Positions 10,669 through 29,890 of a stretch of DNA of 44,531 nucleotides are shown piece after piece. The notes below the pieces were generated by a model. The model did not search any database, was not told the DNA's origin, and was given only the letters and a program-made list of their open reading frames with translations. Position 1 is the first letter of the stretch. Each line of letters starts with the position of its first letter. The translations under genes were made by a program, and so were the position numbers. Source of the DNA: Gammaproteobacteria bacterium (lineage in GTDB: Bacteria; Pseudomonadota; Gammaproteobacteria; Burkholderiales; Gallionellaceae); NCBI GenBank assembly GCA_018819205.1, contig JAHJQE010000003.1, positions 1 through 44,531 on the forward strand, given 5' to 3'.

Positions 10669-11867
10669 TTGTACTCCAGTCCCATCGCTTCGCGCACATC
10701 GCGCATGGTATCGATCGCCAGTTTGCGTGCCTTCTCGCAACCGTCCGCGATGATGTTGCGTACCAGCGTCGGGTCGTCCAGATAACGCTGCGCGCGTTCA
10801 CGCATCGGTCGCTGCTCGCTCAGCACGCCGTCGATGACAGGCTGCTTGCACTCGATACAGCCGATGCCGGCACTGCGGCAACCCTGTTGTACCCACTGCT
10901 TCACGTTTTCGCCCGAATACACCTCGTGCAACTGCCATACCGGGCATTTGTCCGGATCACCGGGATCTGTGCGGCGGATACGCGCCGGGTCGGTCGGCAT
11001 GGTCTTGATCTTCTTCGCCACCTCGGCCTCGTCTTCACGCAGGCTGATGGTGTTGTTGTAGGACTTGGACATCTTCTGCCCGTCCAGTCCCGGCATCTTC
11101 GAAGCAGCAGTCAGCATTGCCTGTGGTTCGGACAGGATCATTTTGCCACCGCCCTCAAGGTAGCCAAACAGACGCTCGCGGTCGCCGTGCGACAGGTTCT
11201 GCTGTTCATCCAGCAATGCTTTGGCCGATTCCAGCGCATCGTCGTCGCCCTGCTCCTGATAACGGGTGCGCAGTTCGGCGTACAGCTTGCCCTTCTTTCC
11301 GCCCAGTTTCTTCACTGCGGCCTCTGCCTTTTCCTCGAAACCCGCCTCGCGCCCGTAGATATGGTTGAAGCGGCGCGCGATCTCGCGCGTGAACTCGATA
11401 TGCGGCACCTGGTCCTCGCCCACCGGCACCTGGGTGGCGCGGTAGATCAGGATGTCTGCGCTCTGCAGCAAGGGGTAGCCGAGGAAGCCATAGGTGGACA
11501 GATCCTTGCCGGACAATTTCTCCTGCTGATCCTTATAGGTCGGCATACGCTCCAACCAGCCCAACGGCGTGATCATCGACAGCAACAGGTGCAGCTCGGC
11601 GTGTTCCGGCACGCGCGACTGGATGAACATCGTGGCATGCGCCGGATCGACACCTGCCGCCAGCCAGTCAATCACCATGTCCCACACGCTCTGTTCGATG
11701 ATCTGCGGATTGTCGTAATGCGTGGTCAGCGCGTGCCAGTCAGCCACGAAGAACAGACATTCGAACTCGTGCTGCATCTGCACCCAGTTCTTCAGCACAC
11801 CGTGGTAGTGGCCCAGATGTAAATTGCCAGTGGGACGCATCCCGGATAACACGCGATCAGCAAACAT
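10665..11867 (-). CDS. trpS: Tryptophanyl-tRNA synthetase
   Basis: 400 residues. Class Ic synthetase charging tRNA-Trp. The HIGH-type motif is GNLHLGHY (14-21), and the KMSKS loop is GQKMSKSYNN. Other hallmarks are the FVADWHALTTHYDN and PVGEDQVPHIEFTREIARRFN segments. It is longer than the roughly 330-residue E. coli enzyme because of an insertion after the tryptophan-binding region (about 190-245, Lys- and Gln-rich), as in other betaproteobacterial forms. It begins 16 bp after the M50 protease gene, with no good ribosome-binding site, so translation may depend on the upstream gene. Confidence 0.96.
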   Translation of the reverse strand: MFADRVLSGMRPTGNLHLGHYHGVLKNWVQMQHEFECLFFVADWHALTTHYDNPQIIEQSVWDMVIDWLAAGVDPAHATMFIQSRVPEHAELHLLLSMITPLGWLERMPTYKDQQEKLSGKDLSTYGFLGYPLLQSADILIYRATQVPVGEDQVPHIEFTREIARRFNHIYGREAGFEEKAEAAVKKLGGKKGKLYAELRTRYQEQGDDDALESAKALLDEQQNLSHGDRERLFGYLEGGGKMILSEPQAMLTAASKMPGLDGQKMSKSYNNTISLREDEAEVAKKIKTMPTDPARIRRTDPGDPDKCPVWQLHEVYSGENVKQWVQQGCRSAGIGCIECKQPVIDGVLSEQRPMRERAQRYLDDPTLVRNIIADGCEKARKLAIDTMRDVREAMGLEYK

Positions 11868-11883
11868 TATTTTGACTTCACAT

Positions 11884-12519
11884 TCACAAGAAAAAGTTGA
11901 TCAGATTGATCACCGCCATGACAGGCGGCGTCAATATCCAGCCCAGTACCGGCGTGATCGCCAGCCCGATGAGTATGAACAGACCATAAGGCTCGATACG
12001 AGAAAGCTGCCAAGCCTGACGATGCGGCAACAGGCTCACCGCCACGCGCCCGCCGTCCAATGGCGGCAACGGTAACATGTTCAACACCATCAGGATGACG
12101 TTGATTTTAACCCCGATCTGGGCCATTTCCATCAATGGCTCGGAAAAGTAGCCATGCGGGAAGCTCCAGGCCAGTTTAGCCATCAAAGCCCAGAAGACGG
12201 CCATGGCCAGATTGCTGGCCGGCCCGGCGATGGCGACCCACAACATGTCCTGTTTGGGGCGACGCAAGGCAGCGAAATTGACGGGTACCGGCTTGGCCCA
12301 GCCGAACAGGATGCCGCCCAGAACGAGGGTCAACAGCGGCAACAGGATGGTGCCGACCGGGTCGATATGGCGCATGGGATTGAGCGAGATGCGCCCCTGC
12401 TGATAGGCCGTCATATCGCCGAAATGGCGTGCCACATAACCGTGCGCAGCTTCATGCAATGTGATCGCGAACAGGATAGGGATCGCCGCGACGACGATGA
12501 GCTGGATCAGATGTTCCAT
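11884..12519 (-). CDS. Site-2 protease family (M50) membrane metalloprotease
   Basis: 211 residues, mostly membrane-embedded. The zinc site is HEAAH (22-26) in the first helix, and the third ligand is Asp155 in the conserved NMLPLPPLDGGR. Proteins of this short, PDZ-free type are predicted intramembrane proteases, but their substrates are not known. The ATG follows directly on the TAG stop of the YciO-like gene (TAGATG), so it is translationally linked. The placement beside trpS and scpAB is a recurring arrangement in betaproteobacteria. Confidence 0.88.
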   Translation of the reverse strand: MEHLIQLIVVAAIPILFAITLHEAAHGYVARHFGDMTAYQQGRISLNPMRHIDPVGTILLPLLTLVLGGILFGWAKPVPVNFAALRRPKQDMLWVAIAGPASNLAMAVFWALMAKLAWSFPHGYFSEPLMEMAQIGVKINVILMVLNMLPLPPLDGGRVAVSLLPHRQAWQLSRIEPYGLFILIGLAITPVLGWILTPPVMAVINLINFFL

Positions 12520-21125: not shown

Positions 21126-21158
21126 GCAAAACAAAGGGCTCGACGAAGCGAGCCCTTT
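21126..21158 (-). terminator. Terminator of the TonB/receptor operon
   Basis: Read leftward: AAAGGGCTCG, loop CTTCGT, CGAGCCCTTT, then GTTTTG. The 10-pair stem (21133-21142 with 21149-21158) lies 28 bases after the exbD stop and separates it from pntAB. Confidence 0.85.
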
Positions 21159-21186
21159 ACCCTTCTTGCAGCGGGGGAATATCCGA

Positions 21187-21594
21187 TTATTTTGATAATG
21201 TGATGAAAGAGAGTTTGGCCACTCCTGCCTTTTGCGCCAATGCCATCAGCGCCGCAACACGACCATAAGGCACCGCGTTGTCTGCTTCGATCTGCAACTG
21301 GAACTGCGGATCGGCAGCGCGGCTGCGCAGCATCCCGGCCAATTCGCTGTCGTTCAACGACTGTTTGTCCATCTCGATATTGCCCTGCGCATCCACCACC
21401 AGACTGACCTGCTGCGGTTTGTCTTTCTGCTGCACGGCGTCGGTTTTGGGCAGGTTGATCTTGAGCGACTGTGGTGCCAGCAAGGGCGCGGTGATGATGA
21501 ATACCACCAGCAACACCAGCATCACGTCCACCAGCGGCGTTACGTTGATCTCGCTCATCATGTTGTCTTCAGAAGAAGAGTTCCCGAAAGCCAT
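21187..21594 (-). CDS. exbD: ExbD/TolR-family biopolymer transport protein
   Basis: 135 residues from the ATG at 21594 (AGGAGG four to five bases upstream; the GTG one codon earlier is too close to it). A single membrane helix near residues 15-40 contains the conserved Asp of INVTPLVDVMLVLLVVF, the proton-carrying residue of ExbD. The rest is the periplasmic domain. With ExbB it uses the proton gradient to drive TonB. It is the last gene of the eight-gene operon. TolR is the alternative, but the adjacency to tonB and two TonB-dependent receptors makes ExbD the better name. Confidence 0.92.
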   Translation of the reverse strand: MAFGNSSSEDNMMSEINVTPLVDVMLVLLVVFIITAPLLAPQSLKINLPKTDAVQQKDKPQQVSLVVDAQGNIEMDKQSLNDSELAGMLRSRAADPQFQLQIEADNAVPYGRVAALMALAQKAGVAKLSFITLSK

Positions 21595-21603
21595 CACCCC
21601 TCC

Positions 21604-22260
21604 TTACAGTTTGAAATCATGCTTTTGCGCCAGACGCATGAAGTCGTGTGCGAAGTTCTCCAGGTCGGTTACATGCACTTTCAGACGACGCAGGAAGAAG
21701 TTGTATGCCAGCACAGCAGGTAGCGCGGTGGCGATGCCGATGGCGGTAGCGATCAGCGCTTCGCCAATGGGTCCTGCCACCACATCCAGAGAAGCGGAAC
21801 CGGTGCGACCGATGTCCTGCAAGGCATGCATGATGCCCCATACCGTGCCAAACAATCCCACGAAGGGCGCGGTGGAGCCGATGGTTGCCAGTTCGGCCAG
21901 CCCACGCTCGTGATAGCGCTGGATGTTCTGCAACTGCTGGCGCAGCATGCGCTCCAACACGTCCTGCGGTGCACCGGAATGTTTAAGGTCCTGTTGTGCA
22001 CCATTGATGGTCTTCAGTTCGGCAAAGCCTGCCTGCGCCAGCCGCGCAATATCACCCTTGCTGCTTTCGGCGACTTTGCCCGCCTCGCTCCACTCGCGCA
22101 CCGCCCAGAACTCGCGATTGAAACGCTGGTCGTGCTGGCGCGATTCATACTGCTTCCATACTTTGAACAGCGCGATGGACCAGGTCACGATGGACAGCAC
22201 GATCAGCAACAGCAAGGTCGCCGAGACGATGGGGGAAGTGACAGAAAAGAGATCGTTCAT
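21604..22260 (-). CDS. exbB: ExbB/TolQ/MotA-family proton channel
   Basis: 218 residues from the ATG at 22260, six bases after the tonB stop; the longer reading to 22350 lies inside tonB. Three membrane helices: about 12-35 (VSATLLLLIVLSIVTWSIALF), about 125-150 (the conserved LATIGSTAPFVGLFGTVWGI) and about 165-195 (IGEALIATAIGIATALPAVLAYNFF). These are the MotA/TolQ/ExbB signature helices. The long cytoplasmic part lies between the first two. It works with ExbD and TonB to energise outer-membrane receptors. Confidence 0.93.
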   Translation of the reverse strand: MNDLFSVTSPIVSATLLLLIVLSIVTWSIALFKVWKQYESRQHDQRFNREFWAVREWSEAGKVAESSKGDIARLAQAGFAELKTINGAQQDLKHSGAPQDVLERMLRQQLQNIQRYHERGLAELATIGSTAPFVGLFGTVWGIMHALQDIGRTGSASLDVVAGPIGEALIATAIGIATALPAVLAYNFFLRRLKVHVTDLENFAHDFMRLAQKHDFKL

Positions 22261-22265
22261 GCGGC

Positions 22266-22922
22266 TTATTCCTCCAGAGAAAATTTGATGGGCACCAGGA
22301 ACCATTGCGTGACCGGCTGGCCGAAACGCTTGGCCGGCGAGAACTTCCATGTCTTGACGGTCTGCAGCGCGGCCTTGTCGAGGATGTCGAAGCCGCTGCT
22401 GGTCTGCAACTTCACTTCGCCCGCCCTGCCCTCGGCCAATACTTCGACGTTGAGTACCACCTTGCCCTGATAGCCCATGCGCCGCGCCACCAGCGGATAC
22501 GGCGGACGCGGATTGTTCAGATAATCGGCGCGGTAATCCGGCTCGGCATCCAGTTGCACAGGAGAAGGTGGTGTCTGCATGGCCGGCGCGGACGGCATCT
22601 CTTCCTGCACCACCGGTTCTGGTGCGGGTGGTGCTTCCGGTTCGATCACACGCGGCTTGGGCTCAGGCTTTTGTTCCGGCTTGATCTCGGGTTGCGGCGC
22701 GATATCCGCCTGCTGCATCTGCATATTGGCGAAGGAGATGGACATCTCGTTCACCGCCACCATGGGCGGTTCCGGCTGCGCCAGCCAGAAGGCGAACAAC
22801 ATCAGATGCGCGAGCACCGCGATGCCGACTGCAGTCAGTCGCTCGTACCACGGCGATTCCAGTGTCGCGTCGTATAACGCGTGCATATATGTCAGCGGCA
22901 GGTTGAGAACTAGGGCCGACAT
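22266..22922 (-). CDS. tonB: TonB energy transducer
   Basis: 218 residues. One N-terminal membrane anchor (about 28-48, LTAVGIAVLAHLMLFAFWLA), a Pro/Glu/Lys-rich periplasm-spanning linker (about 75-125, KPEQKPEPKPRVIEPEAPPA) and a C-terminal TonB domain (about 130-218) with PPYPLVARRMGYQGKVVLNV and AALQTVKTWKFSPAKR. It transmits energy from ExbBD to TonB-dependent receptors. It begins one base after the stop of the upstream receptor gene, so this TonB is made together with the two receptors and is probably dedicated to them. Confidence 0.94.
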   Translation of the reverse strand: MSALVLNLPLTYMHALYDATLESPWYERLTAVGIAVLAHLMLFAFWLAQPEPPMVAVNEMSISFANMQMQQADIAPQPEIKPEQKPEPKPRVIEPEAPPAPEPVVQEEMPSAPAMQTPPSPVQLDAEPDYRADYLNNPRPPYPLVARRMGYQGKVVLNVEVLAEGRAGEVKLQTSSGFDILDKAALQTVKTWKFSPAKRFGQPVTQWFLVPIKFSLEE

Positions 22923-22923
22923 G

Positions 22924-25011
22924 CTACCAGCGCCCCTCCAGCGTCACCAGCAAGGAACGATAGCCGACGCTGCGACTGTTCAAGGAATAGACATCGCTGC
23001 CATTGGTAAAGCGCGTGTTCTGCACGGTGTCCGTCGCCAGCAGATTTCTGGCCGTGGTGCGCAGATTGAACACAGGCGACAGCTTGTACAGCCAGTAACC
23101 GTCCAGTGTGGCACGTGCGTCGGATACGGCGTACTCCTCGCCCGGAATGTCGGTCACGCTACGCCCTGATAGCTGCAGTGACACACCATAACTGGATTTG
23201 AGCTTGGGCAGGTTCTCGTCCAGTCCGGCCGAGAAAATGTATTTGGGTGTGTCGCGTGCCATGCGCGAGATGCCTAGGCGCGCATCGTTCACCGTGGCAT
23301 GCGGCAAGGTCAGATGCGCTTTGACGGTCGCGCCCTTCCATCCCCAGACATCGGTGCGCACCTTGCCGTCCAGCTCCCAGCCCCAGTGGCGTGCACTGCC
23401 CTCGTTCTGAGGGCGATCCACCCAGCGCGTGCCTTCCAGTTGCACGCGGCGCTCGGTGAAATCCTGTGTGTTGCGCGCATAGAAATTCAGTCCGAACACG
23501 CCGGCGTTGTCTGGCAGATAACGTTCCAGCACCGCCTCGAAGTTCACGCTGCGCTCGGGGCGCAGGTTCGGGTTGCCGCGCGTGTCGGCTTCCGTCGGTG
23601 TGTTCGCTGCCACGCTCAGCGTCGCCGCATCGCTGATCTCGTTCAGTCGCGGCATCTTCAGCCCCGCCCCCAGCGAAGAGCGCAGCAGCCATTGTTCCTG
23701 CGGTGCATAGCGGATCGCCAGTGATGGCATCACTTGCCCATGCTGCTGGGCACTGCTGCCGGTATCCAGATCGACGCGTTCTCCGCGCAGACCATAGGTG
23801 AAGGTGGTCTTGTCGCTCAGCATCCAGTCGTCCTGCAGCCACAGGATGTTCTGCCTCTCGCTATTGGCATAGTGGGAAGTCACACCCGAGAAGGTCTGCG
23901 TGTCGCTACTGTTCAGAGATGCGTGTTCCAGCCCGACCGCGAGCAGATGCTGTTCGCCCAGCGGCCTGTCCAGCCTGAACGCCATGCTGGATTCGTGCTC
24001 GTTGCTGGATGTGTCATCCGTGTTTGAGCTGGGCGTGCCGATCGCGTCATGCGACAGACGCAGCACATGCACATCTCGTGTGCCGTGGTTGAGCGAGATG
24101 CGCCCGGTGAGCTTGTTGTCAGCCAGATGCTTCTCGCCTTCCACGCGCAGACGTTGCAGGCGACGGCGCATCTCCTCGCGACTGCTGCGGTCGCCGTTGG
24201 CGATGAAAGTGCTACTGCTTGCCGGACTGGCGGCTGTCTGCGTCATGTCGCTGTTGCGCTTACCCAGTCCGTCGAACAGCAGGGGTGCGACAGTCAGGCT
24301 GTCGCGCTCCTGCTTCCAGGTCATGCGCGGCGACATCACGAATTCGCGGAAGGTGAACAAGCCCTGTTCCTTGTCATGCTCGTTCAATACCGTGACCCCG
24401 GTTGTCTCGTTGCGCCGTTCCAGCATGCTGCCGGCAGGGCGGCGATGCATATTGAGCGTGATCGGCAAGGTCCAGGCGAAGCCGCCCTCGCCGCCGTTCT
24501 CCGTCCAGGTGAACTGGCCGGTCGGCTCGTCGCCATTCATGCCTGCGGCGACTTTCACGGTCGTGGAACGTTTGCTGACAGGTTTCTTCATCACCAGATT
24601 GACGGTCACGGATGCTGCGCCGCCGTATTCCGCGGACGAACCGCGCAATATCTCGACGCGCTCCAGTTCCCCAGCGGGCAGGCGACCGACCACGCCCGCC
24701 ACGATGCGCGAGCCGCCCGCCGGACGCTCGCCGTCCACCAGGATCTGCACACTGTCGCGCGACATGCCGCGTGCGCGGTGACCATCGCCTTTGACTTCCA
24801 CGCCCGGCAACTTGCCCAGCACCTCGCCGATAGTCATCACGCCCATGTTCTCGATGTCCTTGCGGCCGATGATCACCTTTTGCGTGGTCGCATCGCGCCT
24901 TGCAGTGACGTCTTCCTGCTTGCCGGTGACGGTGATCTCTTGCAGGGCGGGTTGGTCTTCGGCCAATGCCAGAAGTGGGAGGAAGGCGAATAACAGACAG
25001 CTACGTTTCAT
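22924..25011 (-). CDS. TonB-dependent outer-membrane receptor (second receptor of the operon)
   Basis: 695 residues from the ATG at 25011; the frame continues upstream to 25275, but that lies inside the neighbouring gene. A signal peptide (about 1-18, ending LALA) is followed by the TonB box region (ALQEITVTGK), a plug domain (about 40-150; IGEVLGKLPGVEVKGDG, DSVQILVDGERPAGG, ERVEILRGSSAEYGG) and a beta-barrel ending VTLEGRW, with the aromatic C-terminal residue expected for an outer-membrane protein. The barrel resembles the OMP_b-brl_3 type. The ribosome site is weak, so coupling to the gene ending 17 bp upstream is likely. The substrate cannot be read from the sequence. Confidence 0.9.
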   Translation of the reverse strand: MKRSCLLFAFLPLLALAEDQPALQEITVTGKQEDVTARRDATTQKVIIGRKDIENMGVMTIGEVLGKLPGVEVKGDGHRARGMSRDSVQILVDGERPAGGSRIVAGVVGRLPAGELERVEILRGSSAEYGGAASVTVNLVMKKPVSKRSTTVKVAAGMNGDEPTGQFTWTENGGEGGFAWTLPITLNMHRRPAGSMLERRNETTGVTVLNEHDKEQGLFTFREFVMSPRMTWKQERDSLTVAPLLFDGLGKRNSDMTQTAASPASSSTFIANGDRSSREEMRRRLQRLRVEGEKHLADNKLTGRISLNHGTRDVHVLRLSHDAIGTPSSNTDDTSSNEHESSMAFRLDRPLGEQHLLAVGLEHASLNSSDTQTFSGVTSHYANSERQNILWLQDDWMLSDKTTFTYGLRGERVDLDTGSSAQQHGQVMPSLAIRYAPQEQWLLRSSLGAGLKMPRLNEISDAATLSVAANTPTEADTRGNPNLRPERSVNFEAVLERYLPDNAGVFGLNFYARNTQDFTERRVQLEGTRWVDRPQNEGSARHWGWELDGKVRTDVWGWKGATVKAHLTLPHATVNDARLGISRMARDTPKYIFSAGLDENLPKLKSSYGVSLQLSGRSVTDIPGEEYAVSDARATLDGYWLYKLSPVFNLRTTARNLLATDTVQNTRFTNGSDVYSLNSRSVGYRSLLVTLEGRW

Positions 25012-25028
25012 CAGGAAGAATTGATTGA

Positions 25029-25676
25029 TTAAACAAATAATAAGATGCGGCGCAATCCCAGCACGATCAGCACGGCGGCTGCGCCCCAGCGTATCCAACG
25101 TGTCAGCCAGTCGCGGTTGTCGCGTAACTGTTTGCCCAGCAGGCTGATCAGCGGCAATAGTATCAGCAGCGGCGTGAGCGCTGCACCCAATCCGAACATC
25201 ACGCCGTTGGCCATGCCAAGCTGCACGCTGCCTGCCGCCGCACACACGGCGAGCAAGGATGCCAGCGGTGCGCACGGCGTAAGGCTGAGCGAGAAGCCGA
25301 GCAACAAAGGCGGCGCACTGCCCGCCCGCTTAGCCACACCACACGGCATATGCGTCTTGCTGGTGCGCAACAGCCACAGTCCGGCGGCGATGGATGCGGC
25401 ACCGATGAACAGATTGCCGCTGCCGCCCTGCATCGCCTGCGACAGCCATGTGCCCGCCGCTGCCGCCAGCGCCCCCAGCATCGTGTAAGCCAGGATGCGT
25501 CCGCTGACGAACAACGTTGTATCGCGCAGCGCCTGCATCTGGCTGCCGCCCCGCCCCAGTATCCAAGTGCCCATGAACGGCAGGCAGGTGGCGGTGCAGG
25601 CAGTCAGCCCCAGCGAGGCACCCAGCAGCCACACGGTGAACAGCGTGGTCTGCTGAGACAGTTGCCACTCATCCAT
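25029..25676 (-). CDS. DsbD/TauE-SafE-like membrane protein (DsbD_2 type)
   Basis: 215 residues, six hydrophobic segments with an internal duplication. The first half has LTACTATCLPFMGTWILGRGG, and the second has the matching LTPCAPLASLLAVCAAAGS. Cys residues in the first helix of each repeat are the hallmark of DsbD/CcdA-like membrane electron carriers. Proteins of this size, often annotated as sulfite exporter TauE/SafE, also occur next to CcoG-type ferredoxins in cytochrome-oxidase assembly clusters. Here the ATG overlaps the stop of the polyferredoxin gene by eight bases, so the two products are made together. Moving electrons or thiol redox equivalents across the membrane is an inference. 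Confidence 0.75.
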   Translation of the reverse strand: MDEWQLSQQTTLFTVWLLGASLGLTACTATCLPFMGTWILGRGGSQMQALRDTTLFVSGRILAYTMLGALAAAAGTWLSQAMQGGSGNLFIGAASIAAGLWLLRTSKTHMPCGVAKRAGSAPPLLLGFSLSLTPCAPLASLLAVCAAAGSVQLGMANGVMFGLGAALTPLLILLPLISLLGKQLRDNRDWLTRWIRWGAAAVLIVLGLRRILLFV

Positions 25677-26718
25677 TCTCTTTGGCGCGCAGGATGGGAA
25701 TGACGCGCTTCTTCGGTTGGCCTTCCGGCGATTCGTGCTTCACGCGCGCCTTGTAATAGTCACGCGAGGAACCGAACAGCTTGAAGCCAAAGAACTTGAG
25801 CTGGATCACATCGTCGTCCGGACAGTATTCGGCACAGCGCCCGCACAGCGTGCAGTCTTCGTGGAAGGCTTTGCTGCCGAAGGCAGTGCCGATCTCGTGG
25901 ATGTCCATCGGGCAGGCTTTCTCGCACACGCCGCACTTGGCGCATTTGTCGTACGACTCCTTCTTCACCAGACGCATCGGCGACAGCTTCTGGAACAGCG
26001 CATTCCACGATAGCAGCGGGCAGATACGGCAGAACGGCTGACGCACGGCCAGCGCTGCGATGATGATGAAGCCGAACATGGCGTTGCCCAGCGCGCCGAG
26101 GAAGAAGTTGATGCCCGTGCCGGTACGCACGGCGAGCTGTTCGGTATCCGCCGTCAGCAAGGTGGTGGCGATGCGCGAAGGACAGACCTGGCAGAACGGA
26201 TCGCCCAGTTCGTTGGCGACGGTGCCCATGCCCGCCAGCGTCGGCAGGCCCAACACCAGCACCAACAGCATGAACCATTTGACCAGACGCACACGGCCCA
26301 CGTTCTCTTTCGTAAAGCGTTTGAGTGGACGGCGGATACGGCGCCCGATCTTGTAGAGCACTTCCTGCACCGTGCCCAACGGACAGACCCATCCGCAGAA
26401 CGCTTTGTTCAAAAAGAAGAAGAACATGAAGAACACGCCCACCGTGATCAGCGTGGGCAGGAACACATTGAGCGCGACATCGCCCGCCTTGGCCAATGCC
26501 GCCCCGACACGGTGATGCAACTGGTGTTGCGCACTGATCAGGATGCAGTGGTCGCCGGTCACTTTGTCGTAGGCGCAAGCCAGCGACGGCAGCGCCTGCG
26601 AGATACGGTCCACGGTGTAGCTGCCCAGCAGTGCGCCGCCGTACACGGTGACGAACAGCATGATGATCTGCACAGTGAAGCGGAAACGCGCCAGCGTGGG
26701 GAACAGATTGTTAAGCAT
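25669..26718 (-). CDS. Membrane-bound 4Fe-4S polyferredoxin (NapH/NosR/CcoG/FtrD-like)
   Basis: 349 residues from the ATG at 26718, which has AGGAG seven bases upstream. Membrane segments lie at about 15-35, 85-108, 150-172, and 215-235. CGWVCP after the second and CQVCP and CRICP further on match the Cys motifs of NapH/NosR/CcoG proteins. The C-terminus has two cytoplasmic 4Fe-4S sites, CAKCGVCEKACP and CTLCGRCAEYCP. It is shorter than CcoG and lacks the C-terminal Ig-like domain. Relatives pass electrons through the membrane, for example to reduce copper or in ferrous-iron uptake (FtrD). It sits between a DUF4198-like protein and a DsbD-like protein inside a TonB operon, which points to metal reduction linked to uptake (inference). 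Confidence 0.85.
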   Translation of the reverse strand: MLNNLFPTLARFRFTVQIIMLFVTVYGGALLGSYTVDRISQALPSLACAYDKVTGDHCILISAQHQLHHRVGAALAKAGDVALNVFLPTLITVGVFFMFFFFLNKAFCGWVCPLGTVQEVLYKIGRRIRRPLKRFTKENVGRVRLVKWFMLLVLVLGLPTLAGMGTVANELGDPFCQVCPSRIATTLLTADTEQLAVRTGTGINFFLGALGNAMFGFIIIAALAVRQPFCRICPLLSWNALFQKLSPMRLVKKESYDKCAKCGVCEKACPMDIHEIGTAFGSKAFHEDCTLCGRCAEYCPDDDVIQLKFFGFKLFGSSRDYYKARVKHESPEGQPKKRVIPILRAKENG

Positions 26719-27598
26719 TGGTTGACTCCTCATTCTTGGCGGCAGCCTTGCGTTTGCGCAGCAAGGGTGCCGCGCCCAGCATGCCGACCAGCATGAATCC
26801 CAGCCCCATGGTCAGGCTGCGATTGGCATAAGCATCTTCGCCATAGCTGCTGTTGAAGGCAGTCAGATATCGTTTGCCGCCGTCTTCATGCGACACCGCC
26901 AGCACGAGATCTGCCCCGCGTCGCATGCCATGGTTGCCCCCCTTGCTTTGTGCTTCTTCTGCTTTGAAATCATCCGGCACATGCATTTTCACCACGCCCG
27001 ACGCATCGGTCATGAATTCAGAATGGCTGCCGTTGGAAGTCTCCAGCACGACTTTCTGTGCAGCCAGCGGCTGGCCCTTGAAGCGCACGATGAATTGCCA
27101 GTCCTCATTGGCACGGTAACGGGAATGTTCGCGCGGATAAGGCTGCGGCACGATCTCCAGTTCGTGCTTGAACTGATCGAACATGGCGGTCGGGTTCTTG
27201 CCGCCGCGCTCGCCGAAGTAGTGCACGGTAGACGCGACGCGCACGCTATCGCTCTGAACTTCGCGTGCGGTCAGCATCTGGAAGCCGCCCGTGGCGGGTT
27301 TGTCCAGTGGTGCGCCGCCCATCTCTATGGATAACTGACGATGTCCGTTCGCATCATCCAGATCGTTCGACCAGGCTTCGACCACACCCGCCGCTATGTT
27401 CTGCGGCTGGATGATGTAACTGCGCGATGACATGTCCTGCCCTTTCATGCGCGGCTTGAGCAGCGGCAGTTGCGTCCAGTCACGTGATTGACTGCGCATC
27501 ATGGCGTTGTGGTCGTGCTGTGCCATCGCCGGCGGTTCGGCAGCGAATGCTGTCGCGGTGCAGGCCGCGAGCAGACAGGAGTAATAGTGGATTTTCAT
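26711..27598 (-). CDS. DUF4198-like periplasmic protein with C-terminal membrane anchor
   Basis: 295 residues. A signal peptide (about 1-19, LLAACTATAFAA) is followed by a His/Met-rich stretch (MAQHDHNAMM, about 25-34) that could bind a soft metal. The central part (about 75-245) resembles DUF4198 proteins: two beta-sandwich-like segments with LEIVPQPYP, a carbohydrate-binding-like WQFIVRFKGQPLAAQKVVLETSNG and the following MTDASGVVKMHVP. Near the end is a membrane helix (about 260-280) followed by RKRKAAAK, a tail anchor. DUF4198 members are linked to nickel/cobalt uptake and to TonB receptors, but the function is unproven. It follows the first receptor by 9 bp; its stop overlaps the polyferredoxin start. 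Confidence 0.7.
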   Translation of the reverse strand: MKIHYYSCLLAACTATAFAAEPPAMAQHDHNAMMRSQSRDWTQLPLLKPRMKGQDMSSRSYIIQPQNIAAGVVEAWSNDLDDANGHRQLSIEMGGAPLDKPATGGFQMLTAREVQSDSVRVASTVHYFGERGGKNPTAMFDQFKHELEIVPQPYPREHSRYRANEDWQFIVRFKGQPLAAQKVVLETSNGSHSEFMTDASGVVKMHVPDDFKAEEAQSKGGNHGMRRGADLVLAVSHEDGGKRYLTAFNSSYGEDAYANRSLTMGLGFMLVGMLGAAPLLRKRKAAAKNEESTNA

Positions 27599-27607
27599 AG
27601 CCGTCCT

Positions 27608-29890
27608 TTAGAAGCTGAGCGAAGCGCCGACCGTCCACACGCGTCCGGGGTTGACGGTGATGGAAACGTCTTCCGCGTTGTACACACCGTCGCCGTTGCT
27701 GTCGGAACCACCACGGATAGTGGAGTAGTAATAACGGTCGAACAGGTTGTCGATACGGGCGAAGGCGGACCATTTCATCCTGCGGTCGCTCTTGAACTCG
27801 TAGTTCGCCATCAGGTTATAGGTGGTACGCCCACCGACCCAGACGATGTTCACCTCGTCCGCGTAGATACCGGATTGCGCATTCATCTCGCCGGTGAAGG
27901 TCCAGCCGTCCATCGGGCGATAGCGCGAGGTCAGATTCAGCTTGTGCTTGGGTGTGCGCGGCACGACGTTGTCGGTGTTGTTGTACAGCACGGAAGGCAG
28001 CGGCAAGCTGCGCGAGCCCATGGACATCCAGTAGACATCGTTGCGGGTGAACACGGCATTAAGATATGTATAGGCCATGTCGCCGGACCAGACTTCGCGA
28101 CTGTCGGTCTTGATGCTGGCTTCCAGTCCGCGATTGCGCACGCCGCCGATGTTCTGGTACTGCTCCAGCGCATTGGCCAGTGTCGCACCGGATGTCGTCT
28201 GATACTGGCCGCCAGTGTTGAGGATGAAGTCCTTGCGGTCGATCTGGAAGATTGCGACGTCGGTATCCAGCGGGATGCCCAGCAGTTCGGTCTTGGCGCG
28301 CAGGCCGACTTCTGCGTTATAGGAATGCTCCGGCTTCAGATCCGGGTTCGGCGCGACGGTACCTGTCGGCGAGATCGTGCCGCCATAAAGCTGCGACAGC
28401 GTCGGCACACGGAAACCGGTGGACAGGTTGGTGTACAGCTCGCGTTCATCGTTGAAGGCATAGTTGAAACCGATGCGTTCCGACAGAACGTTGAAACTCT
28501 TCTCTCCGCTGGTGGTACGGCCTTCCGCGATCTGTGCAGTGGTGAGCGGCAGATAGCTGATGTATTTCTGACCGATATTGTCGTAACGCGCATTGAAGGT
28601 GGCGGTGAACGGTGAACTTAATTGCCATTTCAGTTCGCCATACACCGCGCGCGTGTCGGAGCTGGAGAGGCTGTCTTCGGTGAGGTCACCGGCCAAACGC
28701 AGCGGATTGGTGATACCTACCGGTGTACTGCGGCTGGTATAGGTCACCAGATTGTTGGTCAGCGAACGGTCCTCGAACTGCTGCAGATCCAGACCGCCCA
28801 TCCAGGCGACTTGTTGCCCGCTCTGGCGCCACTCCGCTTTCGCGCCGCTCTGCTTCTGCTGCGTGTCGCGCCCGCTGACATAGGCATCGCGCATGGTGCT
28901 CATGTCGCTGGCAGCGGAGGTGCCGTACAGGAACGCGCCCGTGCTGTCACGCAGGAAGCCGCTCGGGTTCTGCCAGCCGAAAGTGTGGTCCTTGAATAGA
29001 TAGGTGTTGACCAGCAGATTGCCGCCAGCGCCGGTGTCCTTGGCATAGGACAGATTGACCTTGTCCAGCGTCACATCGTATTTGCGTGCATAGTCCTTGC
29101 CGCCGTCCACGCTGGTCGGGTCGAGCAATGCGGCCGTCACACCGCGCACGGTGCCGTGGCTGTCCTTGTTACGTTGGGCATGCTCAAAACCGAAGGTCAG
29201 GTCGCTGGTCTCGTCGAGCATGTACTGCAGCTTGCCGTCGACATAATCGCGGCCCCAGTCGCCCTGATCGTGAAAGGTCTTGGATTGCAGCCTGGATTTC
29301 TGGATGTGTCCCACCCATTTACCATCAGCGAAACCGGCACGCAGGATGCCCTTGTAGGTGTCATAGCTGCCAACTTCGGCGCTGGCGGTATAGCCGGCCA
29401 TCTTTGCACCGCGTTTGGTAGTGATGATCACCGCACCGGACAGCGCGTCCTCGCCGAACAGATAGGATGCACCGCCCTTGATGACTTTGATGGATTCGAT
29501 GTTGTCCAGATCGATATTCACCCGACCGGTACGTTCCACCACCGGCACGCCGTCGATCACGATGGCCACGCCCGGCTTCTCGCCCATGTAGCGCTGCGCT
29601 TCCACGCCGCGCAGCATGATCTTCACCGAGTCGCCGCTCTGTACTTCGGCCGATACGCCGGGAATTGATTCAAGTACTTCGACGATGTTTTGCCCGTGGC
29701 GCGCATCGACTTTCTTGCCACTGATGTTGTTGACGTTGGAGGGCTCGCCGCGCTTGGAATCGAAACGGTCATCGATGGTGGTCGAGGAGACGGTCACTTC
29801 CGGCAGGGCGCCGATCTCGGCCCAGCTTGCCTGCGGTGCTGAAAGTGCCAATGCCACACATGCTGCGATATGTTTGATGCTTTTATCCAC
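27608..29890 (-). CDS. TonB-dependent outer-membrane receptor (first gene of the operon)
   Basis: 760 residues from a GTG start at 29890 with GGAGG five bases upstream. Signal peptide (about 1-24, ending SWA), TonB box (LPEVTVSS), plug (about 45-160; VEVLESIPGVSAEVQSGD, VAIVIDGVPVVERTGRVN, SIKVIKGGASYLFGEDALSG) and a 22-strand-type barrel ending VGASLSF. It resembles colicin I/FepA-type receptors. An unusual DSNGDGVYNAED loop (730-741) has the spacing of an EF-hand or dockerin calcium loop and falls in the last extracellular loop of the barrel. It is the first gene of an eight-gene operon that includes a second receptor and tonB-exbB-exbD. The substrate is unknown; iron, copper, nickel or another chelate are possible. 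Confidence 0.92.
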   Translation of the reverse strand: MDKSIKHIAACVALALSAPQASWAEIGALPEVTVSSTTIDDRFDSKRGEPSNVNNISGKKVDARHGQNIVEVLESIPGVSAEVQSGDSVKIMLRGVEAQRYMGEKPGVAIVIDGVPVVERTGRVNIDLDNIESIKVIKGGASYLFGEDALSGAVIITTKRGAKMAGYTASAEVGSYDTYKGILRAGFADGKWVGHIQKSRLQSKTFHDQGDWGRDYVDGKLQYMLDETSDLTFGFEHAQRNKDSHGTVRGVTAALLDPTSVDGGKDYARKYDVTLDKVNLSYAKDTGAGGNLLVNTYLFKDHTFGWQNPSGFLRDSTGAFLYGTSAASDMSTMRDAYVSGRDTQQKQSGAKAEWRQSGQQVAWMGGLDLQQFEDRSLTNNLVTYTSRSTPVGITNPLRLAGDLTEDSLSSSDTRAVYGELKWQLSSPFTATFNARYDNIGQKYISYLPLTTAQIAEGRTTSGEKSFNVLSERIGFNYAFNDERELYTNLSTGFRVPTLSQLYGGTISPTGTVAPNPDLKPEHSYNAEVGLRAKTELLGIPLDTDVAIFQIDRKDFILNTGGQYQTTSGATLANALEQYQNIGGVRNRGLEASIKTDSREVWSGDMAYTYLNAVFTRNDVYWMSMGSRSLPLPSVLYNNTDNVVPRTPKHKLNLTSRYRPMDGWTFTGEMNAQSGIYADEVNIVWVGGRTTYNLMANYEFKSDRRMKWSAFARIDNLFDRYYYSTIRGGSDSNGDGVYNAEDVSITVNPGRVWTVGASLSF

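Follow-up and report, generated by a model that had tools for sequence, protein, structure and literature searches.

A conserved TonB operon with two membrane redox proteins in Gallionellaceae, a candidate system for copper acquisition

Relation to described metal uptake systems

Bacterial copper intake is poorly known. Only a few TonB-dependent copper receptors have been described (PMC12914433). Here we describe an operon of eight genes on the minus strand (positions 21187-29890) of nucleotides 1 to 44,531 of contig JAHJQE010000003.1 from a gammaproteobacterium of the Gallionellaceae, a stretch that we call the window. In the order of reading, the genes encode a TonB-dependent receptor (receptor 1), a DUF4198-fold protein, a membrane polyferredoxin, a DsbD_2 membrane protein, a second receptor, TonB, ExbB and ExbD, and a terminator follows (Table 1). 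We interpret the operon as a copper acquisition system that is energised by TonB and carries a module of its own for periplasmic reduction, and give this reading, including the whole mechanism, a probability of about 0.6; the broader claim that copper is involved in any role is somewhat safer. The analysis itself establishes the gene content, the conservation of the set as a unit, a link to the copper storage protein Csp1 in Gallionellaceae, the cysteine conservation and the predicted fold of the DUF4198-like protein. If the reading is correct, iron-oxidising and other Pseudomonadota combine the import and reduction of copper, and in relatives its storage, in a single conserved operon.

The closest known system is CruR-CrtA-CrpH of Bordetella pertussis (PMC12914433, PMC13038864). 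There, a TonB-dependent copper receptor is produced along with an inner-membrane protein for which the authors propose a possible role as copper reductase, an arrangement that resembles the window operon; elsewhere, some crtA operons include genes for ExbBD/TonB, PCuAC or ScoI, and the system is linked to haem-copper oxidases. CrpH is a haem-binding PepSY_TM protein, whereas the operon described here has a polyferredoxin with a DsbD_2 protein, a DUF4198-fold protein and, in relatives, Csp1. The mark of CrtA-CrpH is a PepSY_TM reductase gene after the receptor; a Pfam search of the eight window proteins (12 hits at E <= 0.001) gave no PepSY or PepSY_TM hit.

A second related group is the PepSY/DUF2271/DUF4198/ApbE system (PMC8238504, PMC3751524, PMC7190382, PMC12004947), which likewise combines a DUF4198 protein and a TonB receptor with a membrane redox protein proposed for periplasmic metal reduction. 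The window operon differs in that the same Pfam search found no flavinylated DUF2271, ApbE or PepSY, in that the carrier is an Fe-S membrane protein, and in that operons of the window type have copper rather than iron neighbours in Gallionellaceae. The FtrABCD/P19 ferrous iron system, too, is a metal uptake operon that includes a polyferredoxin of the NapH-like kind (FtrD-like). It is distinguished by P19, the cupredoxin and the FTR1 permease, none of which was hit among the eight proteins. CcoG is a membrane protein with Fe-S clusters. It is known as the cupric reductase of cbb3 oxidase assembly (PMC13038864), but FixG_C is not among the 12 Pfam hits, and the window gene lies in a TonB operon instead of ccoGHIS. 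Csp1 of methanotrophs (solved structure 5fjd) has homologues in or beside the operon in many Gallionellaceae relatives and is absent from the window's genome. A parallel with Shewanella SO1188-SO1190, considered at first, was dropped; that cluster contains a PepSY_TM protein (SO_1188), and no polyferredoxin was named for it.

A preliminary description, made from the letters of the window, had not recognised the set as a described system. For the gene set this holds among the literature matches listed, including those from searches that combined the operon's parts; as to function, a close relative, CrtA-CrpH, is already in print.

Conservation of the gene set and its copper neighbours

With the polyferredoxin as query (E <= 1e-30) and with the window's own genome included in each count, matches were found in 37 genomes of the family (120 searched), 20 of the order (300), 16 of the class (369) and 24 of the phylum (397). 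They form two groups, the window-like type 1 (43-100% identity) and type 2 (about 28-34%); one distant relative, with 30% identity, is on a plasmid. In the Gallionellaceae, a family of microaerophilic iron oxidisers, type 1 is found in 28 genomes and type 2 alone in 9. The closest named relatives are Sideroxydans assemblies, whose polyferredoxins reach 95% identity; Gallionella and others come next.

Neighbourhoods were drawn in a set of 51 and a further 36, and genes were labelled by profiles built from the first set. The counts refer to 89 polyferredoxin genes (75 type 1, 14 type 2), all different in their last 200 residues, and denominators omit loci on contigs that end too early. The loci are distinct by polyferredoxin sequence only, named and unnamed collections may share genomes, and the crude open reading frame caller missed genes in GC-rich loci. 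Around the type-1 genes a DUF4198-like gene is adjacent upstream in 73/74, preceded by a TonB receptor in 71/74, and DsbD_2 lies downstream in 72/74; ExbB was found in 52/64, ExbD in 51/63 and TonB in 55/64. The four-gene core with its energiser is a unit that is found in at least two classes. A chance neighbourhood was rejected, as dozens of distinct loci share the order of the core genes. The survey for this core next to tonB-exbBD had been named beforehand in the preliminary description, and at the level of gene order it upholds the proposal of a TonB system that has its own energiser and a pair of membrane redox proteins.

Many of the operons have beside them a gene for a small cysteine-rich protein, three homologues of which (two and one more) received no Pfam name. 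The neighbour of L032 matches Csp1 structure 5fjd with E = 2.4e-22 and that of L090 with 8.5e-15; these are the only two that were compared with the Protein Data Bank (PDB). A search of 57 genomes found Csp1 in 24 of the 28 Gallionellaceae genomes with type 1 and in 4 (near the operon in 2) of the 7 tested among the 9 with type 2 only, but in just 2 of 10 tested among the 83 family genomes without a match to either type. The comparison of 24/28 with 2/10 gives a Fisher probability of 3.5e-4 that takes no account of relatedness. In 16 of the 28 type-1 genomes Csp1 is encoded less than 12 kb from the polyferredoxin gene, at 1.4-7.0 kb (the copy in G369 is partial and has a stop), and in G477 it lies at 12.1 kb. 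At the level of loci, it is near the operon in 17/55 usable type-1 and 3/10 usable type-2 cases. The csp1 gene is on the strand of the operon in 17 of 19 drawn loci, either after exbD (also in the type-2 operons L113 and L114), after the DsbD_2 gene, or upstream (L042). The several positions of csp1 suggest that the linkage probably arose more than once and does not go back to a single chance event. In a different class, two genomes have Csp1 about 6 kb from the operon on the opposite strand (5fjd match 8.5e-15).

FeoB, taken as an iron control, is present in all of the 28 Gallionellaceae type-1 genomes and within 12 kb of the operon in none, as against 16 for Csp1. This bears on an alternative in which ferric chelates would be imported, Fe(III) would be reduced by the polyferredoxin and DsbD_2, and Fe(II) would enter via FeoB encoded elsewhere, the operon then being a cousin of the PepSY/DUF2271/DUF4198/ApbE system. 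The general presence of FeoB suits such a route, and in one genome outside the family (G140) its gene is 6.6 kb from the operon. The bearers, however, include iron oxidisers that live on Fe(II), and the partners DUF2271, ApbE and PepSY are missing from the Pfam hits as described above. A Fur-box scan gave no clear excess: 12 of 70 upstream regions scored at least 12 of 19 (best 13), against 8.0 expected from sequences shuffled by two-base blocks. Iron had been our first lead from the DUF4198 literature (PMC3751524, PMC2667191, PMC2535785, PMC12442407, PMC8238504, PMC7190382, PMC12004947), and it lost ground with Csp1 found beside the operon and FeoB not. We consider reductive iron uptake unlikely.

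Apart from Csp1, PCuAC and SCO1, copper genes were identified by reading through the neighbourhoods, and they are single cases. L071 has NosZ, with NosD, 2.7 kb from the operon; in L109 a P-type ATPase with an HMA domain, which we take to be copper-type by its CPC motif, lies just upstream with a second DsbD_2 and a thioredoxin-fold protein. COX1 is present in 71 of 73 type-1 genomes and, among the matches listed, is about 4 kb from the operon in G1006. PCuAC was found at 3.4 kb in L072, at 14 kb in G032 and at about 6 kb in the type-2 genome G119, and SCO1, among the matches listed, at about 9 kb in G333. The ATPase gene that precedes the operon in L109 would also suit copper defence, in which periplasmic capture and storage lowers copper toxicity, and Csp proteins bind much Cu(I). 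Two TonB receptors with an energiser of their own, however, make an import machine, and the Bordetella copper receptor operon is expressed under copper limitation (PMC13038864, PMC12914433), so that a role in defence is very improbable. The preliminary description had proposed redox-assisted metal uptake as a candidate function and had not settled on a metal; Csp1, together with these single-case neighbours, points to copper.

Several observations weigh against copper acquisition as the function. Csp1 was found in none of the 12 searched type-1 genomes of other families, and among Gallionellaceae type-1 genomes it is lacking in the window's genome and in 3 of the other 27. In the 45 type-1 genomes outside the family, PCuAC and FeoB each occur within 12 kb only once (G012 and G140). 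PepSY_TM genes, which are usual in iron reduction, lie near 2 of 53 usable type-1 and 1 of 8 type-2 loci (one seed), and also near L110. The Fur-box scan had no positive control and its scores are shifted slightly upward. The closest solved relative of receptor 1 is a transporter of pyrroloquinoline quinone (PQQ): a profile of seven relatives has YncD/PqqU as its nearest solved chains (6v81, 4.1e-38; 9c4o, 4.9e-38). DUF4198 is known from iron settings, with Fur-regulated genes in Caulobacter (PMC3751524) and PepSY-type clusters proposed for periplasmic iron reduction (PMC8238504, PMC12004947), and from a nickel setting (PMC12537917), and the solved relative 9gcb favours Ni over Cu. None of the eight proteins has a demonstrated copper-binding residue, and we infer both copper and reduction. 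Taken together, the data suggest a copper link that is strong in Gallionellaceae and only suggestive elsewhere, and copper is the most likely metal.

The genome of the window (2.15 Mb) has no Csp1 at E <= 1e-5. Compared with L021, L022 and L023, about half a kilobase holding csp1 is missing between exbD and the pnt gene; csp1 is likewise missing in L024, where receptor 2 was not found either. In the more distant relatives L030, L032 and L054, csp1 occupies the corresponding site, ahead of a gene about as long as pnt, so that loss is the simplest account for the window. The window's genome retains SCO1, two tandem PCuAC genes (G000:C20:12109-12947) and two COX1-type genes, and thus has uses for periplasmic copper. 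The tandem PCuAC pair is also seen in many Gallionellaceae genomes. PepSY_TM genes, a feature of the Bordetella copper operon and of iron-reductase systems alike, lie near the operon at L038:15695-18207, L041:16696-18087 and L110:15106-16734, and in L117.

Redox proteins, proposed mechanism and a sister operon

Pfam assigns Fer4_5 and dicluster ferredoxin domains to the polyferredoxin; a NapH test with TIGR02163 gave 61.0 bits, below the cut-off of 213.05, and a fold search in the PDB gave no match at E <= 0.001. The structural model has four long helices (14-36, 86-108, 142-168 and 207-229). All 16 cysteines, including C53 and C63, and H70 are invariant in the 67 aligned of 75 type-1 and the 12 aligned of 14 type-2 proteins; in a smaller first alignment of 41 sequences, C53, C63 and H70 were conserved at 90% or more, not invariant. 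These three residues sit in the loop between helices 1 and 2. From where the helices lie and from the positive-inside rule, judged by eye, this loop and C181/C184 are predicted to be periplasmic, and C113/C117/C235/C238 and the ferredoxin domain cytosolic. The extra pair of invariant cysteines, in a loop predicted to be periplasmic, suggests an outward electron wire of Fe-S centres that ends at a periplasmic four-cysteine site; because the C53/C63 loop is poorly predicted (pLDDT about 50), we offer the wire as a working hypothesis. The DsbD_2 protein (PF13386) scores well above its cut-off of 24.9 bits, and its C27, C31 and C135 are kept in all 62 aligned homologues. Such conserved cysteines are expected of a thiol carrier of the CcdA kind, and the three are probably redox-active.

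The DUF4198 (PF10670) match of the DUF4198-fold protein is below the curated cut-off (28.4 bits against 34), and the fold is present in the predicted structure. The gene families named in the preliminary description were as stated, with DUF4198 resting on the predicted fold. The protein has an apparent signal peptide, a His/Met-rich linker and a C-terminal helix (model residues 262-291) that is probably a membrane anchor. A PDB sequence search with a DUF4198-like profile returned merely two weak hits, to unrelated surface proteins. An N-terminal histidine after the signal peptide is 79% conserved in DUF4198 (PMC12537917), and binds metal in the relative studied. The window protein reads ..AFA-AEPP.. 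at this point, and among 57 relatives, judged by eye rather than with program-predicted cleavage sites, the histidine is not the rule, although L051 and perhaps L105 carry one. The suggestion that the DUF4198 protein presents the metal gains no support from this site. The missing histidine also argues against another metal (nickel, cobalt or zinc) or an organic cofactor as the substrate, with the redox pair reducing a disulfide or a ligand instead of a metal. For such substrates the nickel-binding relative and the PQQ transporter would be precedents; the link to Csp1 speaks against them, and no nickel gene was noticed in the neighbourhoods, which were not searched systematically for such genes. 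We regard them as improbable.

For copper acquisition we propose the following mechanism. A copper complex would be bound by one of the two receptors and cross the outer membrane by means of the operon's TonB-ExbB-ExbD, as is expected from the families. Electrons may pass in the polyferredoxin from the cytosolic ferredoxin clusters to a membrane-face cluster at C113/C117/C235/C238 and on to a periplasmic centre formed by C53/C63 and C181/C184 near H70/H74. At this centre Cu(II) would be reduced to Cu(I), which would free the copper from its ligand. The DsbD_2 protein would export electrons as thiols and thereby prevent oxidation of the cysteines in proteins that bind Cu(I), for example Csp1, and the DUF4198-fold protein might hold or hand over the metal via its His/Met-rich linker. 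Cu(I) would stay in the periplasm, either in Csp1 (most Gallionellaceae bearers) or passed to SCO1/PCuAC for haem-copper oxidases. As copper would be reduced, stored and used in the periplasm, no inner-membrane permease would be needed.

The type-2 operons share the receptor, TonB and ExbBD backbone, and sometimes Csp1, with type 1. A double-cubane-type gene follows the polyferredoxin gene in 13 of 14 loci, and DsbD_2 follows in 11 of 14. All seven double-cubane proteins tested exceed the NCBIfam cut-off of 350 bits, and both activase genes tested match BcrAD_BadFG. Double-cubane reductases use ATP to drive electron delivery in the cytosol, and the type-2 arrangement thus favours an outward electron flow. 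We tentatively suggest, with less than even confidence, that the polyferredoxin is dedicated to carrying electrons outward for the reduction of metal in the periplasm, with two exchangeable power supplies on one receptor/TonB/Csp1 backbone: cytosolic or quinol electrons in the window, or an ATP-driven double-cubane reductase with a BcrAD-type activase that pushes very-low-potential electrons outward. If so, a double-cubane reductase would for the first time have a part in metal acquisition, and an ATP-driven electron pump of this kind would for the first time be linked to import by TonB; the type-2 version would also provide double-cubane-cluster reductases with a physiological task. To our knowledge no such role has been reported, and the best 10 of 423 literature matches hold no such description. 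Examples with reductase and activase between the polyferredoxin and DsbD_2 genes are L079:6081-13301, L078:8611-13353, L039:1-6359, L113:6089-17869 and L114:2207-14158; L039 holds both versions of the operon side by side in tandem.

Organisation of the operon

Table 1. Features of the window operon, with coordinates and basis of assignment.
Feature	Position	Strand	Basis
Receptor 1, TonB-dependent receptor, 760 aa, GTG start	27608..29890	-	Plug 7.1e-18, b-barrel 1e-48 (Pfam)
DUF4198-fold protein, 295 aa	26711..27598	-	weak Pfam match and predicted fold
Membrane polyferredoxin (Fer4_5, NapH-like), 354 aa	25669..26733	-	Fer4_5 47.6 bits (Pfam)
DsbD_2 membrane protein, probable thiol electron carrier, 215 aa	25029..25676	-	DsbD_2 65.9 bits (Pfam)
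Receptor 2, TonB-dependent receptor, 695 aa	22924..25011	-	b-barrel 5.9e-33, Plug 3.7e-12 (Pfam)
TonB, 218 aa	22266..22922	-	TonB_C 84.9 bits (Pfam)
ExbB/TolQ-type proton channel subunit, 218 aa	21604..22260	-	MotA_ExbB 123.3 bits (Pfam)
ExbD/TolR-type subunit	21187..21597	-	ExbD 105.6 bits (Pfam)
Site of csp1 (copper storage protein 1) in close relatives, absent from the window	21158..21187	-	junction compared with L021-L024
Intrinsic terminator-like hairpin	21132..21159	-	11-pair stem

All eight leftward genes of the preliminary description are present on the minus strand over the span it gave. Both receptors have Plug and TonB_dep_Rec_b-barrel domains, and with TonB, ExbB and ExbD they exceed the Pfam cut-offs, which makes up a full set for TonB-dependent transport. 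Junctions were counted with stop codons included. Receptor 1 is separated from the DUF4198-fold gene by 9 bases; the latter overlaps the polyferredoxin gene by 23 bases if the first ATG is taken, and the polyferredoxin and DsbD_2 genes overlap by 8 bases. The gap from DsbD_2 to receptor 2 is 17 bases (with the start taken as the ATG at 25011 in preference to the GTG at 25275, which would give a longer frame), and the remaining gaps are 1 base from receptor 2 to tonB, 5 bases from tonB to exbB (ATG at 22260) and 6 bases from exbB to exbD. Gaps of 1-17 bases and two overlapping junctions fit a single transcript. No sigma-70-like promoter was found in a simple scan, Rfam at gathering thresholds gave no match and a tRNA scan found none. 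The strong terminator noted earlier after exbD could be traced to the hairpin, the stem of which includes one G-U pair and is followed by TTTTGC; the surrounding 66 bases fold at -24.0 kcal/mol. The operon is flanked by mutL (divergent) and by pnt transhydrogenase genes, named from reading their translations instead of a family search.

Some type-1 operons hold additional genes. One encodes a BNR-repeat-like protein that includes a Cys-rich stretch, another a thioredoxin-fold protein of the TlpA kind; each is present near 12 of 53 usable loci, and these or a further receptor gene lie within operons such as L034:12467-16513, L100, L101, L102 and L103. In members of one family (f203), the genes for receptor 1 and the DUF4198-like protein have between them a gene for a small protein (L094:7855-8391, L097:7780-8304 and neighbours); the L094 copy matches LTXXQ with 26.8 bits. 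In L110 the polyferredoxin and DUF4198-like genes are separated by an opposite-strand gene of 407 aa (10685-11908) that by eye resembles a transposase, and the receptor that precedes it also looks broken.

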